The translations under genes and the position numbers were made by a program. A model generated the notes under the pieces. The model did no database searches. It was not told the DNA's origin and was given only the letters and a program-made list of their open reading frames with translations. 31,801 bases of DNA, from positions 1-31,801 of IMG/VR virus record IMGVR_UViG_3300030098_001259; one strand, given 5' to 3'. Positions 3,611 through 31,194 of this stretch are shown one piece after another; positions within the stretch are counted from its first letter, which is position 1, and each line of letters opens with the position of its first letter. This DNA is from a virus.

Positions 3611-3992
3611 CAGCCCGAAGTGCGGTAGAGGGAACTCACAGGAGATGCGGCAACTGCATCTATAAATAGAGAAGAGTTGCAAACCTAACCAATAAACTAA
3701 GGCACGACGGTGCCGTCCGTGGCTGAATAAGCTCTGTAGTAAGGAGCTAAGGCACACACTAGACCGTGGTGGTCTGACCGATGTACATAATGTATGAGGT
3801 CATCCTCGTAACTGAGGATATGGTGGTAGGTGGTTGTAATAAAAATACTATTACTCCTCTGCCTTGCAGGTAATAATTAAATCCTGCCGGACACTAATCT
3901 TCCACTCATGCCCGAGGCTAAGGCATGGGCTCTTGAAATATAGAGCGTAGAGAGTCCAAACTACGACATCAAAGGGGGCAAATCTATCGGAA
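3611..3992 (+). ncRNA. Untranslated block of serial hairpins with CTAAGGCA repeats
   Basis: No gene is visible in these 380 bases. Short perfect stems follow one another: 3643-3648 with 3656-3661; GGCAC 3701-3705 with 3710-3714; AGCTC 3730-3734 with 3744-3748; AGACC 3761-3765 with 3771-3775; ATCCTC 3802-3807 with 3814-3819; ATTAC 3850-3854 with 3870-3874 enclosing CTGC 3859-3862 with 3866-3869; CATGCC 3907-3912 with 3922-3927. The octamer CTAAGGCA occurs three times, at 3697, 3747 and 3918. It has no tRNA T-loop consensus, so it is not a tRNA cluster. The block ends in terminator 3, consistent with a discrete small RNA transcript. That is inference. Confidence 0.4.
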
Positions 3993-4062
3993 CCCAGTAG
4001 GTGAGGTGATCGAGGCACATGTACTGATGTCGGATCACCCCTACTGTGGTTTCTTTTTTTTT
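3993..4062 (+). terminator. Strong intrinsic terminator 3
   Basis: A long imperfect hairpin: GGTGATC (4005-4011) pairs with GATCACC (4033-4039), extended by AGTAGG (3996-4001) with CCTACT (4040-4045) across a 3-base bulge and by outer CC/GG pairs. It is followed by a T-rich run (4050-4062, nine consecutive T near the end). It separates the left block from the small-gene operon. Confidence 0.85.
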
Positions 4063-4541: not shown

Positions 4542-4856
4542 ATGCGTATACAAAATGCTAATAGTCCGTCCTCCGTGCTGCACTACCGGCAGTCCGAGTG
4601 GCTGGCTATTGTAGATACCGTAGAGTATATCTACGATATCTTAGATAAAGAAACCTTGGATAACCTACGGCATGGCTACGGTCAGACGATAGGCTACCCA
4701 ATTATAGACAAGCTAGCGACTGCACTCGAGCAGTTCCTAGAAGATAACGATAGTATGGAGCGAGTTTACATCGACTCATACTTAACTGTTGAAGTCAAGC
4801 GTGTCAAAGACTTCATCAGTTTCATACGATTGGCACAAGAGATACAAGTAAGGTAA
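4542..4856 (+). CDS. Small acidic protein, unknown function, 104 aa
   Basis: Family not recognised. Two ATGs compete: 4536 abuts AAGGA (4531-4535) with no spacer, while 4542 has about 6 bases and is preferred. The product looks largely helical, with repeated acidic and hydrophobic patches (VEYIYDILDKETLDNL, KLATALEQFLEDND). It has no Cys cluster, signal peptide or membrane segment. It ends 5 bases before the next start and so belongs to the same translationally coupled run. Small acidic helical phage proteins often bind host enzymes, but that is only a possibility. Confidence 0.72.
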   Translation: MRIQNANSPSSVLHYRQSEWLAIVDTVEYIYDILDKETLDNLRHGYGQTIGYPIIDKLATALEQFLEDNDSMERVYIDSYLTVEVKRVKDFISFIRLAQEIQVR

Positions 4857-8897: not shown

Positions 8898-8905
8898 GAG
8901 AATGT

Positions 8906-9892
8906 ATGAGTCACGAAATGTTTGAATATGATCACGCACTTTATGTTGGTAAGCCAGCGTGGCACGGACTGGGAACAGTCGTTGAAAATGCACCAACAAC
9001 CATGGATGCTATGCGTCTGGCAAAGATGGACTTTGATGTAGTAATGTCAAACCCTATCATTGCTCAGTTCAAGGATCCTAATGAGTACTATCAGAACAAT
9101 ACTAAAGCTAGTAAGTTCTATGCTACAGTACGCTGTGATACTAATGAAGTATTGGGTGTAGTAGGAGAGAACTATAAGGTAGTACAGAATGAAGAGCTAT
9201 TTAAGATAGCAGACTCACTGCCTAAAGCTAAAGTTGAGACAGCTGGTACTCTATTCAATGGAGCACAGTCTTATATCTTAATGAAGGATGATGAGTGGGC
9301 TGTCAATGGCAACGATGAGATGCATGAGTATCTCTGTCTTATGAACAGTCATGATGGTACGCTAAGTCTATCAGCACTACCTACCTCAATCAGAGTTGTA
9401 TGTAACAACACATTGAGCTGGGCAATCAGTGAAGGTAAACAACGTATGATTAGACTGAAGCACACAGGTGATATCGATAGTAAGATTCACAGCCTGACTG
9501 AAGCATTAGCTGAATGGCATCATGCTAAAGATAGGTTCAGATCTTCTGTTCGTACCCTAGCTAGTAGACGCTGGGATAGGAATCAAATCCAAACTTTCTG
9601 GATGGACATGTATCAAATGTTCGAAGGCGATGTGCCTCGTGAATCAGATACGGATAAGAATCATAGGCTTCGCAAGAAAGCTATGACTACATTCCATACA
9701 CTATCTGAAACATTCGATAAAGAAGTTCAAAAGTTTGGTCAAGACAATGCATGGATTGCTGCTAACGCAGTAACCAACTGGCTGCAACACAAGAAACGCA
9801 GAACTACCGAAGCTACTGTTGCCAATAAACTTATTGGTGATGCTAGCCGAGACTCTGCTAAAGTGATGCGTCATGCATTGCAATTAGTCTAA
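8906..9892 (+). CDS. DUF932 (phage/plasmid TIGR03299-like) protein, 328 aa
   Basis: The N-terminus (SHEMFEYDHALYVGKPAWHG, then GTVVENAPTTMDAM) and the block VVGENYKVVQNEELF near residue 85 are the signature of DUF932/TIGR03299. This family of about 300-350 residues is widespread in phages and plasmids. Also typical are FNGAQSYILMK and SIRVVCNNTLSWA at about residues 115-175. The biochemical role is not established; a link to DNA metabolism is often suggested from context. The start ATG 8906 follows AGGAG. The length is normal and no frameshift is visible. It is the last gene before a 595-base untranslated block, so it probably closes the small-gene operon. Confidence 0.88.
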   Translation: MSHEMFEYDHALYVGKPAWHGLGTVVENAPTTMDAMRLAKMDFDVVMSNPIIAQFKDPNEYYQNNTKASKFYATVRCDTNEVLGVVGENYKVVQNEELFKIADSLPKAKVETAGTLFNGAQSYILMKDDEWAVNGNDEMHEYLCLMNSHDGTLSLSALPTSIRVVCNNTLSWAISEGKQRMIRLKHTGDIDSKIHSLTEALAEWHHAKDRFRSSVRTLASRRWDRNQIQTFWMDMYQMFEGDVPRESDTDKNHRLRKKAMTTFHTLSETFDKEVQKFGQDNAWIAANAVTNWLQHKKRRTTEATVANKLIGDASRDSAKVMRHALQLV

Positions 9893-10487
9893 GCCCACGC
9901 CTCTGTATCTTAAGTATGGAACATCGTATGGTTACTCATAAGAACAACAGCATTTTGTATACTCTTAAGGACAGAGTGGCAAAGTAGGACGAAGACTGAC
10001 TCAGTATGATACTATTGGTGAGTATAAACAGTATCCACCACGTATCCTCGGTGTAAAACTTTGGGATCGAGTGATGGGCGTAACCCATCGACAATCTAAA
10101 GGTTTCTTTCCGCAATTAACCGGTTTGGAAAGTGTAATGGATGGCGAATGTAGAACAAGATATAGTCATCCCCCTACAATCTACGAGAGTTACGGCTAAA
10201 ACCCCCGTCCGTCAGAAGGACACGTTAACCAGCGGGGTCTCTCAATCAGACTCTGCCGAGTTTTAAGCCTTTGGTGATGCATGGTCAGCGAATAAGACTG
10301 CCTGTAAGGCGTGAAGAGGATGTAAGATTCCTTACGGTAGAGGGTACTGGTCCTTGAGGAAGGACCTAATGCTCCCAGACACGGTGGCTTGTGTCCAGAG
10401 TCAATAGTTTAATAGGGGTGGGCAGCTGGAGCTAGCAGTTAAATAACTATAAACAGCTAACCCACCCCAACAATTATAGGAGACATT
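9893..10487 (+). ncRNA. 595-base untranslated block of serial perfect hairpins
   Basis: No credible gene lies here. The block opens with a long stem, CTCTGT and CTTAAG (9901-9906, 9909-9914) with 9964-9969 and 9971-9976. Next come GATGGG 10073-10078 with 10084-10089; CTTTCC 10106-10111 with 10127-10132, whose loop holds palindromic AACCGGTT; and ACCCC 10201-10205 with 10234-10238 enclosing GTCC/GGAC. Then GTAAG 10322-10326 with 10331-10335; GGTCCTT 10349-10355 with 10360-10366; GACAC 10378-10382 with 10391-10395; and finally GGGGTGGG plus AGCTG (10415-10428) with 10454-10468. This density suggests a structured RNA placed before the second RNA polymerase operon. No tRNA or intron consensus was recognised. 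A 77-codon frame without a start (9969-10200) crosses it. Confidence 0.45.
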
Positions 10488-10757
10488 ATGCCTGGCAATA
10501 GTTGGAGACAAGACAATAGTAACTGGGATACAGATCGGCACTGGCGTAGGATGAAGGAAGATCAGCGTGCTGTTCGTGAAGGTAAAAAGAAATATGTCCC
10601 TAAGAAATGGGATGGTGATGCAGGTAAGGGTGATGGAAGAAGAGAGAGTGATATATCTGATGAAGAGTATGGTCTTAGATATGACCTTGCATTTGGTAAG
10701 ATAACCCGTGAAGAGTTTGAAAAAAGGATGAATAAACTTGACAACTCAATGGAATAA
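10488..10757 (+). CDS. Small charged protein upstream of RNA polymerase, 89 aa
   Basis: Family not recognised. ATAGGAG about 7 bases upstream supports ATG 10488. The first 50 residues are Trp/Arg/Lys-rich (HWRRMKEDQRAVREGKKKY, then KKWDGDAGKGDGRR) and look disordered. The rest is a probable helical hairpin (EEYGLRYDLAFGKITREEFEKRM). It overlaps the polymerase gene by 20 bases, so its translation may feed the polymerase's weak TTG start. A nucleic-acid-binding or polymerase-modulating role would fit, but there is no direct evidence. Confidence 0.7.
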   Translation: MPGNSWRQDNSNWDTDRHWRRMKEDQRAVREGKKKYVPKKWDGDAGKGDGRRESDISDEEYGLRYDLAFGKITREEFEKRMNKLDNSME

Positions 10758-13182
10758 ACTATCTAAAGGTGATAAGATTAAACGAGATGATTGGCAGCGT
10801 GTGTTAGAAGAAGACATGCTAATGACATCTTGTTCTAGATACTGGAATGAATATAACAGAGCACCTGATGAAGGCATACCTGAGCAACAGCTACTAGATG
10901 CTGCGGTTACTAGTCTGGAACCATGTTATCAAGAGTGGATAGATAGAGTATGTCTTAATACTAAGACACCTCAATGGGTACATCCACTACTAGCAGTAGG
11001 TTCACGGAAGATGGCTGACTTAACTATAAGATGTTTACTTAGAGTATGGCTAACACCTAACATATTTGGATACAAGTTCTCAGAACAATGTAATCCACCT
11101 ACTGCACAGATGCTATCAAATCTTATAGCACAAGAGGTAATAAATATTGTAGGCTTTCAACAAGCTAAAGAAAACTATACTGAAGATTGGCGTACACAAT
11201 CCAAGTTCATTAAGAACTGGACACCTAAGAGATGTATAGCATTTGCTAAGAAGATGGATACAATACCTAGCATGACACTGAAGCAGCGACAAGACTTTGG
11301 TCATCACATGATAAGGATCGCTGAAGAAAGTAATGTGATTGTGTCAGTAAGAAGAAGAAAGAAAACTAAAAAAGGCTATAGGAATTATCTATACATAGAG
11401 TTAGCACCTGAACTGTTGTCAGATTTACATGAACAACATTACTTATTAGAGATGTCAACTCTACTATATAGACCTATGATTGTACCACCTGTTGATCACA
11501 CGTTGTCATCATCAGGTGGACATCTTACTCCTAACATTAGGAAACCTGTAGTACAAAAGTATAGATCTAATCTATATGAAGACGAGAAACTTAATCAGAT
11601 ATCTTCTGAACCTTCTCAGTTAGTTATCGATGGGTTAAATGCACTACAAAAAACTGAGTGGTGTGTTAACATGAGAATATATGATGTAATGAAATCATTA
11701 TTTGAAAACAATACGAGACTTGCTAACTTACCATCATGTAACTTTGAAGAGTTTATGTTTAATGATGAGTACCCAGAAGATGGTACTAAACAAGAGCAAG
11801 CTGTATGGTGTCAACACCGTGAAGAAACCTGGGGTAATTGGTATAAAGACGAGCAAGCTAGAGGTAGAATGTTTGTTCGCTTCAAACTAATAGATAGATT
11901 ATCCAAGTGGAATTTCTTTTACATGCCGTATACTCTAGACTTTAGAGGACGTGCTTACTCTGTATGTGAATTGCTATCACCCCAAAGTTCTGATATAGAT
12001 CGTGGGTTGATTATGTTTGCTAATGCAGTAGAACAAACTGAAGAAGGATTGTACTGGCAGAAAATATACTTAGCAAATCTGTTTGGTATAGATAAGGTAC
12101 CATTCGATGAGCGTATTGAATGGGTAGATAAACATTGGCACATCTTTGAAAAGATAAACGATGACCCATACTCAGAACATTTCTGGATTGATAGTTCACC
12201 TAAGAAAAATAAATCATTCCAAAGACTAGCTACAATCTTTGATCTAATGAGATCAGATGGATTAACACAAGTCCCTGTACATATAGACGGTAAGTGTAAT
12301 GGTTCACAACATTGGGCTGCACTTATGCGTGATGAAGTAATAGGTTTACTAACCAATGTGTTACCATCTAATACACCTCAAGATCTTTATCAATTTGTTG
12401 CTGATAAAACTACAGACTATTGTAAGTTTCATCTTGATGATAATAATTACTATGAAGAGTTCATGGATCATTGGGCTGATGGTATTAGTCGTGATGTAAC
12501 TAAACGTTCTACCATGTGTGATTCATATGGCTTAACTTTTTATGGTATTCAAAAGTATACTAGATCAGAAGGTCATGTCGATTGGATACCTAAAGAACGA
12601 AGGGGTGGTGCTGTTGTTGAATTAGCTAGAGCTATACAAGCAGGACTTAACACATCACTTGAAGGACCTAACAGAGGCAAGGCTTACCTAAAAGAATTAG
12701 CTAGTATAGCCTGTGAAAATAATAAACAACTAGTATGGTATACACCATCTGGTTTTAAAGTTGTACACGTGTATAATAAGACTGGTTCAAGAAGATCTTT
12801 AGCTAAGATGTTTAACAACAAAGAGCTTCAGTTCTTTTTTAGAACTAAGGATATAGATGAGAGAGCAGTTAAACAAGCTATCTCTCCTAACTATATTCAT
12901 TCGTTGGATGCTGCCCACATGTTTCTTGTTATCTATGCTTTCATAGCTGATCATATAAAAGATATGTCTATGATACACGATTCATTTGGATGTCACGCTC
13001 CGTTAATAGGTATCTTAAACAAACATATTAGAGAGGAGTTTAAAAAGATGCATTCCAAAAATTTGCTAGAAAAATTTCGACAGGACATTGGATCCTTAAT
13101 TGGTACACAGTTACCAGAAGTTCCAATGACTGGTGATTTAGACATCGCTGATGTATTATTGTCTAGGTTCTTCTTCTCATGA
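10738..13182 (+). CDS. T7-like single-subunit RNA polymerase, 814 aa
   Basis: Phage RNA polymerase of the T7 family, which transcribes middle and late genes from phage-specific promoters. Diagnostic motifs: LDFRGRAYSV with Asp401-Arg405; motif A VHIDGKCNGSQHW with catalytic Asp517; motif B RDVTKRSTMCDSYG with Lys589 and Tyr597; PNYIHSLDAAH; and motif C IHDSFG with catalytic Asp748. Spacings match T7 (D401-D517 is 116, as in T7), and the length is close to T7's 883. The N-terminal third, which reads the promoter, is divergent as usual, with a basic patch SVRRRKKTKKGYRNY near residue 205. The only start upstream is TTG 10738, 9 bases after AAAAAGGA, inside the end of the previous gene. All catalytic residues are intact. 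I could not identify its promoter by eye. Confidence 0.97.
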   Translation: MTTQWNKLSKGDKIKRDDWQRVLEEDMLMTSCSRYWNEYNRAPDEGIPEQQLLDAAVTSLEPCYQEWIDRVCLNTKTPQWVHPLLAVGSRKMADLTIRCLLRVWLTPNIFGYKFSEQCNPPTAQMLSNLIAQEVINIVGFQQAKENYTEDWRTQSKFIKNWTPKRCIAFAKKMDTIPSMTLKQRQDFGHHMIRIAEESNVIVSVRRRKKTKKGYRNYLYIELAPELLSDLHEQHYLLEMSTLLYRPMIVPPVDHTLSSSGGHLTPNIRKPVVQKYRSNLYEDEKLNQISSEPSQLVIDGLNALQKTEWCVNMRIYDVMKSLFENNTRLANLPSCNFEEFMFNDEYPEDGTKQEQAVWCQHREETWGNWYKDEQARGRMFVRFKLIDRLSKWNFFYMPYTLDFRGRAYSVCELLSPQSSDIDRGLIMFANAVEQTEEGLYWQKIYLANLFGIDKVPFDERIEWVDKHWHIFEKINDDPYSEHFWIDSSPKKNKSFQRLATIFDLMRSDGLTQVPVHIDGKCNGSQHWAALMRDEVIGLLTNVLPSNTPQDLYQFVADKTTDYCKFHLDDNNYYEEFMDHWADGISRDVTKRSTMCDSYGLTFYGIQKYTRSEGHVDWIPKERRGGAVVELARAIQAGLNTSLEGPNRGKAYLKELASIACENNKQLVWYTPSGFKVVHVYNKTGSRRSLAKMFNNKELQFFFRTKDIDERAVKQAISPNYIHSLDAAHMFLVIYAFIADHIKDMSMIHDSFGCHAPLIGILNKHIREEFKKMHSKNLLEKFRQDIGSLIGTQLPEVPMTGDLDIADVLLSRFFFS

Positions 13183-31015: not shown

Positions 31016-31194
31016 AAATAGGTAGATTTTAGTTTGCTACCAGACGAGTTATCTTGTCTGCCTTCTCTGCGGGGAAAGGTTAATAGATAACTCAGAGGTC
31101 ATAGATGAATACTCCGGACGGAATAATTGAAGTCTATGTTTGATGTACACTACCATATATTAATCTATAGTCTTAATTTCTAAGGAGAAATACA
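31016..31194 (+). promoter_or_regulatory. Structured leader of the capsid gene
   Basis: The 179-base gap has a perfect 8-bp outer stem GAGTTATC (31046-31053) with 31086-31093. It encloses a smaller pairing at CCTT/AAGG. An alternative stem CAGAC (31041-31045) with GTCTG (31056-31060) would trap GAGTTATC in its loop, so the two folds exclude each other. AAGGAG then precedes the capsid ATG. In T7-type phages this position often carries a late promoter for the capsid gene, but I could not identify one by eye. Confidence 0.45.

Follow-up and report, generated by a model that had tools for sequence, protein, structure and literature searches.

A mosaic of structured, exchangeable cassettes in an intergenic gap of a phage with a T7-type RNA polymerase

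The window analyzed here is a stretch of 31,801 nucleotides (nt), most of the 34.8-kb IMG/VR virus record IMGVR_UViG_3300030098_001259, and carries a phage gene set with a T7-type RNA polymerase, a T7-like primase-helicase, a DNA polymerase, and a Gp2.5-like annealing protein. The 814-amino-acid (aa) RNA polymerase shares just 27% identity with the closest relative among isolates. A previous reading of the sequence alone had picked out a 595-nt untranslated block (positions 9893 to 10487) and proposed that its hairpins form a structured phage RNA such as a decoy, a processing array, or a regulatory leader. We find that the block is built as a mosaic from about eight structured modules, that it is probably neither a single RNA nor a leader of the polymerase operon, and that its stems belong to discrete interchangeable modules that were not visible to the sequence-only reading from the window.

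Structured modules of the block

The 595-nt extent of the gap is exact, because the open reading frame of the upstream DUF932 gene (8906 to 9892; PF06067, E 2.5e-41) ends at 9892 and that of an 89-aa gene begins at 10488. The 89-aa gene and the polymerase gene (10738 to 13182; PF00940, E 1.7e-78) together span 10488 to 13182; these genes and all modules described below lie on the plus strand. Stop-free runs in the block are not longer than in shuffled sequences, and a coding function was rejected because the longest such runs resemble those of shuffles in nearly all related arrays, with one array (L002) borderline at 4%.

Cassette 1 (9893 to 9994) has an outer stem (GCCCAC..GTGGC / CTCTGT..ACAGAG) around a nested hairpin, and its outer part recurs around other inserts in L007 and in L012 (L-numbers denote stretches of relatives fetched for comparison). 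Nested within it is a conserved 32-nt core, TCGTATGGTTACTCATAAGAACAACAGCATTT (9924 to 9955), which recurs exactly in nine IMG/VR stretches with differing flanking stems. The H-type pseudoknot PKc (9999 to 10035) has stem S1 at 9999-10003/10019-10023, stem S2 at 10008-10013/10030-10035, and the linker ATAAAC. It is followed by a probable H-type pseudoknot, PKe (10036 to 10067; CACC/GGTG and ATCC/GGAT, linker TAAAACTTT), which was read from the sequence and is present as a whole module in L029 at 96% identity. Next come hairpin M1 (GATGGG/CCCATC) with its linker GACAATCTAA (10068 to 10099) and cassette 5 (10100 to 10183; 3' end TACAATCTA), also present in L006 and L044. Cassette 6 (10184 to 10248), closed by GAGAG..CTCTC, is shared by the window and L009 and is absent at this site from L006 and L007. 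Cassette 7 (10249 to 10402; GACTCTG..CAGAGTC) is shared with four relatives, and its inner branch, which carries a 7-bp stem with a GAGG loop (GGTCCTT 10349-10355/AAGGACC 10360-10366), is replaceable, being missing in L007 and replaced in L003. A linker, AATAGTTTAATA (10403 to 10414), recognized from aligned linker variants, leads into cassette 8 (10415 to 10468; GGGGTGGGCAGCTG..CAGCTAACCCACCCC), which is found in nine other arrays and has its core nested inside another hairpin in L044. The last linker, AACAATTATA, and the Shine-Dalgarno sequence GGAGA of the 89-aa gene complete the block (10469 to 10487).

Both stems that the sequence-only reading had singled out are present, namely, the GAGG-loop stem and, in cassette 8, a 13-bp composite stem with one bulge (GGGGTGGG 10415-10422/CCCACCCC 10461-10468 and AGCTG 10424-10428/CAGCT 10454-10458). 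The block as a whole folds to a minimum free energy of -178 kcal/mol, a value that leaves pseudoknots out, against a shuffle mean of -162.9 (z = -2.03; 2 of 100 shuffles as low), an excess that is modest for the block alone. Across 40 nonredundant cassettes the mean folding z is -1.96 (Wilcoxon P = 3e-10), and 50 strong stems were observed, compared with 10 to 20 in shuffles.

Comparative evidence for structure, which includes these cassette and stem statistics as well as covariation of paired positions, is far stronger than the block's own folding energy. For the PKc/PKa family, which the covariation analysis covers, all cells of the nine-sequence alignment A1 are paired (100%), compared with 20 to 48% when the partner is slid, and S2 contains compensatory changes. 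Four of the six M1 stem pairs are compensatory, as are 5 of 12 pairs in the closing stem of the GGGGAGTAGT family (97% paired), whose inner pseudoknots occur in 13 of 14 members. S1 and S2 of that family pair within their own sequence and rarely across sequences, a comparison in which the arm choice, made from earlier solutions, favors own-sequence pairing. Among the window cassettes, cassette 5 has three compensatory pairs in three sequences and cassette 7 has one. Loop letters are conserved while stems vary with compensation. In strong stems on the sense strand, G.T pairs outnumber A.C pairs (36 versus 16; P = 0.008), which therefore favors the transcribed strand. The proposal of a structured phage RNA is supported by cassette folding, stem counts, and covariation together.

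Rfam yielded no credible match up to E 10 in window positions 8900 to 10800, and none of the window's modules is known there; no transfer RNA (tRNA) or transfer-messenger RNA (tmRNA) was found in the window. A group I intron, prompted by GATATAGTC in cassette 5, was rejected on the lack of an Rfam hit, the location of the motif in the 3' side of a cassette 5 stem, and the position of the block between intact genes.

Related arrays and exchange of cassettes

Relatives were found via both flanking genes, and further loci were found by scanning for one module. At the same site, relatives carry modules in other numbers, orders, and combinations. Many of the loci from the scan show a second setting, in which the array lies 3' of a 174-aa gene that itself follows a gene for a Sak4-like protein. 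Records with the polymerase (lineage A) and records with Sak4 (lineage B) do not overlap among the 13 phage records. The stem-free M1 pattern occurs in 26 IMG/VR stretches with six stem variants, all of them paired at 6 of 6 positions, compared with 23% for mismatched arms. M1 is nevertheless absent from L033, L035, and L040, and no module is universal. Arrays range from 246 to 1010 nt, some of them running off contig ends, and matches to the block are confined to one place per genome.

The units are joined by a common linker, RACAAT(C/T/A)TAA, of which 25 arrays (13.5 kb) contain 63 sense copies versus 1.2 expected and no antisense copies. Of 50 distinct linkers, 28 come after the 3' arm of a stem with 7 bp or more, compared with 29% of random positions. 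Cross-array matches are likewise all in one orientation (888 sense high-scoring segment pairs, 0 antisense). Self-comparison identified no direct repeats within the window array and single partial duplications in L015, L039, and L042.

Pairs of closely related arrays differ by whole cassettes. Over the aligned array, L019 and L049 match at 99.8% identity apart from one linker-bounded 159-nt cassette, the inserted form of which is present in four contigs; L042 and L039 differ by one swapped cassette and one insert in a docking hairpin, with identical sequence on both sides. In 11 lineage B arrays (L032-L044, L022), this docking hairpin, TTAGTAGGTACC..GGTATCTACTAA, carries 12 different inserts, some of which are cassettes known elsewhere (L022, L044). 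Assembly chimeras were ruled out as a source of such differences because identical arrays were assembled from separate samples (L012/L027; L033/L038; L035 and three copies; L049/L051/L052).

Cassettes are also shared between the unrelated lineages A and B, cassette 8 among them, at approximately 88 to 100% identity and with up to 100% identity over 65 to 68 nt; polymerase identity within its own lineage falls to 51 to 57%. Integrase and resolvase families (PF00589 and PF00239) were not found in the 13 phage records, which may be incomplete, while positive controls matched. Two cassette patterns had no matches in 84,980 bacterial genomes (species), and by the searches made, the window modules had no match among 50,697 isolate phages or among plasmids. 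The literature searched, which left out most subscription journals, yielded no account of such arrays. At L029:5600-5700 (minus strand), cassettes occur in a third genomic setting; a Sak4 homologue lies at the end of that contig, and lineage B may therefore hold a second array.

Proposed function and competing explanations

The explanation we prefer, although we place it somewhat short of an even chance, is an array of RNA effector cassettes that recombine, made as the 3' part of the transcript of the upstream gene. Its parts differ in strength. The modular architecture of the array is near certain, and an RNA-level function is likely. A decoy or mimic role, the former already suggested by the sequence-only reading, is the best single guess, about even at most, and has indirect backing from a tmRNA reduced to its tRNA-like domain (TLD) that ends the array of L003. 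More tentatively, unrelated phages with a common host may be trading structured RNA effectors, with every unit directed at a different system of the host.

Under this proposal, a unit would consist of a closed stem, often with an H-type pseudoknot, that has conserved loops and free stems and is followed by the unpaired linker. Exchange would proceed by ordinary annealing-type recombination at linkers and conserved stems, with a Gp2.5-like annealing protein in the polymerase lineage and Sak4 in the other. The folded units would act separately as decoys or mimics of host RNAs or as antitoxin-like pseudoknots, and host defense would turn over the cassette stock. Conserved loops on changing stems, combined with turnover and exchange, are as would be expected of RNA effectors in an arms race. 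The common single-stranded linker could serve as a processing site. The array is probably transcribed with the upstream gene as the 3' region of its transcript; by eye, several lineage B arrays end in G-rich hairpins and T runs, although a scanner listed none on the L032 plus strand.

Several observations weigh against this explanation. The inner pseudoknots are weak singly and significant only as a set (Fisher P = 0.0016), the excess of G.T over A.C is moderate and shifts with the stem cutoff (P = 0.14 at the loosest), and folding energy shows no strand difference. The sole cassette with a recognizable target is the TLD of L003, a linker-free element of one relative that is possibly a chance neighbor. 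The cassettes could also act together as one RNA.

In a first rival reading, the whole array would be one large scaffold RNA, similar in kind to GOLLD or ROOL, with swappable outer helices and a function that needs the assembled RNA. The confinement of block matches to one place per genome, the position of the pseudoknot chain ending in M1 (where present) 5' of the linker-joined cassettes, and the replaceable internal branches of cassette 7 would all suit a scaffold. We nonetheless consider it unlikely, given the range of array lengths (some cut by contig ends), the lack of a universal module, and the self-closing cassettes with linkers predicted to be unpaired. Somewhat less probable again are selfish or neutral hairpin elements, comparable to REP or double-hairpin elements, that occupy tolerant intergenic sites and loops and have no phage function. 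Nested hairpin insertion, seen in the 12 inserts of the lineage B docking hairpin, and presence/absence polymorphism of cassettes are consistent with such elements, but selfish elements would not readily account for loops conserved while stems compensate, for a single clustered site per genome rather than scattered copies, or for exclusively sense orientation, and apart from the linker, no terminal motif is common to all cassettes.

A DNA-level device, either recombination sites resembling integron attC or a structure for single-stranded DNA replication, appears improbable. Cassette gain and loss occur at a short linker that the cassettes have in common and, by energy, the hairpins are equally strong on the opposite strand, both in line with a DNA device; however, tyrosine and serine recombinase families were not found in the 13 phage records, and the sense strand has more G.T than A.C. 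In addition, at attC sites it is the stem features that are kept and the loops that vary, the reverse of the pattern here. An mRNA leader, processing, or stability element of the downstream polymerase operon, although compatible with the position of the block before the 89-aa gene and polymerase and with the lack of a detected promoter in between in the window, has equally little to recommend it, because consensus sigma-70 promoters with a TG-extended -10 separate the array from the operon in L005 (positions 1462 to 1489; 12 of 12 consensus positions) and, read by eye, in L002 and L016, and because identical cassette kinds follow another gene in polymerase-free phages; the regulatory leader of the sequence-only reading is therefore unsupported.

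Phage-host conflict is currently read nearly all from proteins. If the cassettes are exchangeable RNA effectors, phage intergenic gaps would conceal a store of such effectors, swapped at fixed sites as an RNA counterpart of the anti-defense island. The cassettes are short, self-contained, and easily expressed, and their targets can therefore be sought individually.

The tmRNA-like element and other known systems

The array of L003 ends in a 79-nt tmRNA TLD (4586 to 4664) without the mRNA-like domain or tag frame. This element was missed by ARAGORN and by Rfam in gathering mode and was found by a permissive Rfam search (RF00023, 51.8 bits, E 2.7e-19, gathering threshold 47, 288 model positions skipped). 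G3.U70 and A73 are kept, as are the acceptor, the T arm, and a reduced D loop, all features of TLD-only tmRNAs. The mycobacteriophage DS6A TLD-only tmRNA is of the same type, and a TLD-only molecule has been reported to be a strong tmRNA inhibitor, perhaps through titration of SmpB (PMC4131195; PMC11915505). Among the arrays read, such an element is present in L003 only, and the window lacks one. If the array does encode effectors, SmpB and trans-translation would be the first testable target. Other TLD-only tmRNAs of 79 to 80 nt, with compensated acceptor stems and G3.U70, occur at L066:6513-6591 (minus strand), L068:1311-1389, and L067:10222-10301 (minus strand); in L066 and L068, repeated CTAATAATTAGTT palindromes separate the genes around them.

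Phage mimicry by pseudoknot RNA is proven for PhiTE pseudo-ToxI, which mimics the type III antitoxin ToxI (PMC3475682). Like the units described here, pseudo-ToxI is a noncoding pseudoknot RNA of approximately 36 nt per unit, arranged in tandem at a locus remodeled by recombination. Tandem H-type units of approximately 30 to 45 nt are present as PKc-PKe in the window and as PKb-PKc in relatives, with PKb, PKd, and PKe identified by eye. The PhiTE repeats, however, are nearly identical and match a known antitoxin, whereas the window units differ from one another and are followed by linker-joined hairpin cassettes. The near-identical direct repeats typical of type III antitoxins (ToxI/CptI/TenpI) are not found in the window, and we therefore do not claim ToxI membership. 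The ToxN-type toxin family PF13958 had no match in 12 phage records, but control genomes gave none either.

GOLLD and ROOL are likewise pseudoknot-rich phage noncoding RNAs of unknown function, and the 5' part of GOLLD is variable (PMC12286853). They are large and have one conserved architecture, whereas the window holds an array of exchangeable cassettes with no Rfam match to either. Like the window array, integron gene-cassette arrays occupy a fixed site, acquire and lose cassettes at a short sequence common to them, and keep a single orientation, but the window cassettes are not protein coding, and a tyrosine integrase, which together with attC sites defines an integron, was not found in the 13 records.

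Elsewhere in the window, the noncoding gaps at 1 to 287, 3611 to 4005, and 31016 to 31192 have nothing in common with the fetched relatives. The gap at 3611 to 4005 (395 nt) contains a manA RNA motif at 3701 to 3897 (RF01745, 77.9 bits); its remainder, which matches no fetched locus, looks structured too, and stems are visible in the stretches at 1 to 287 and 31016 to 31192.
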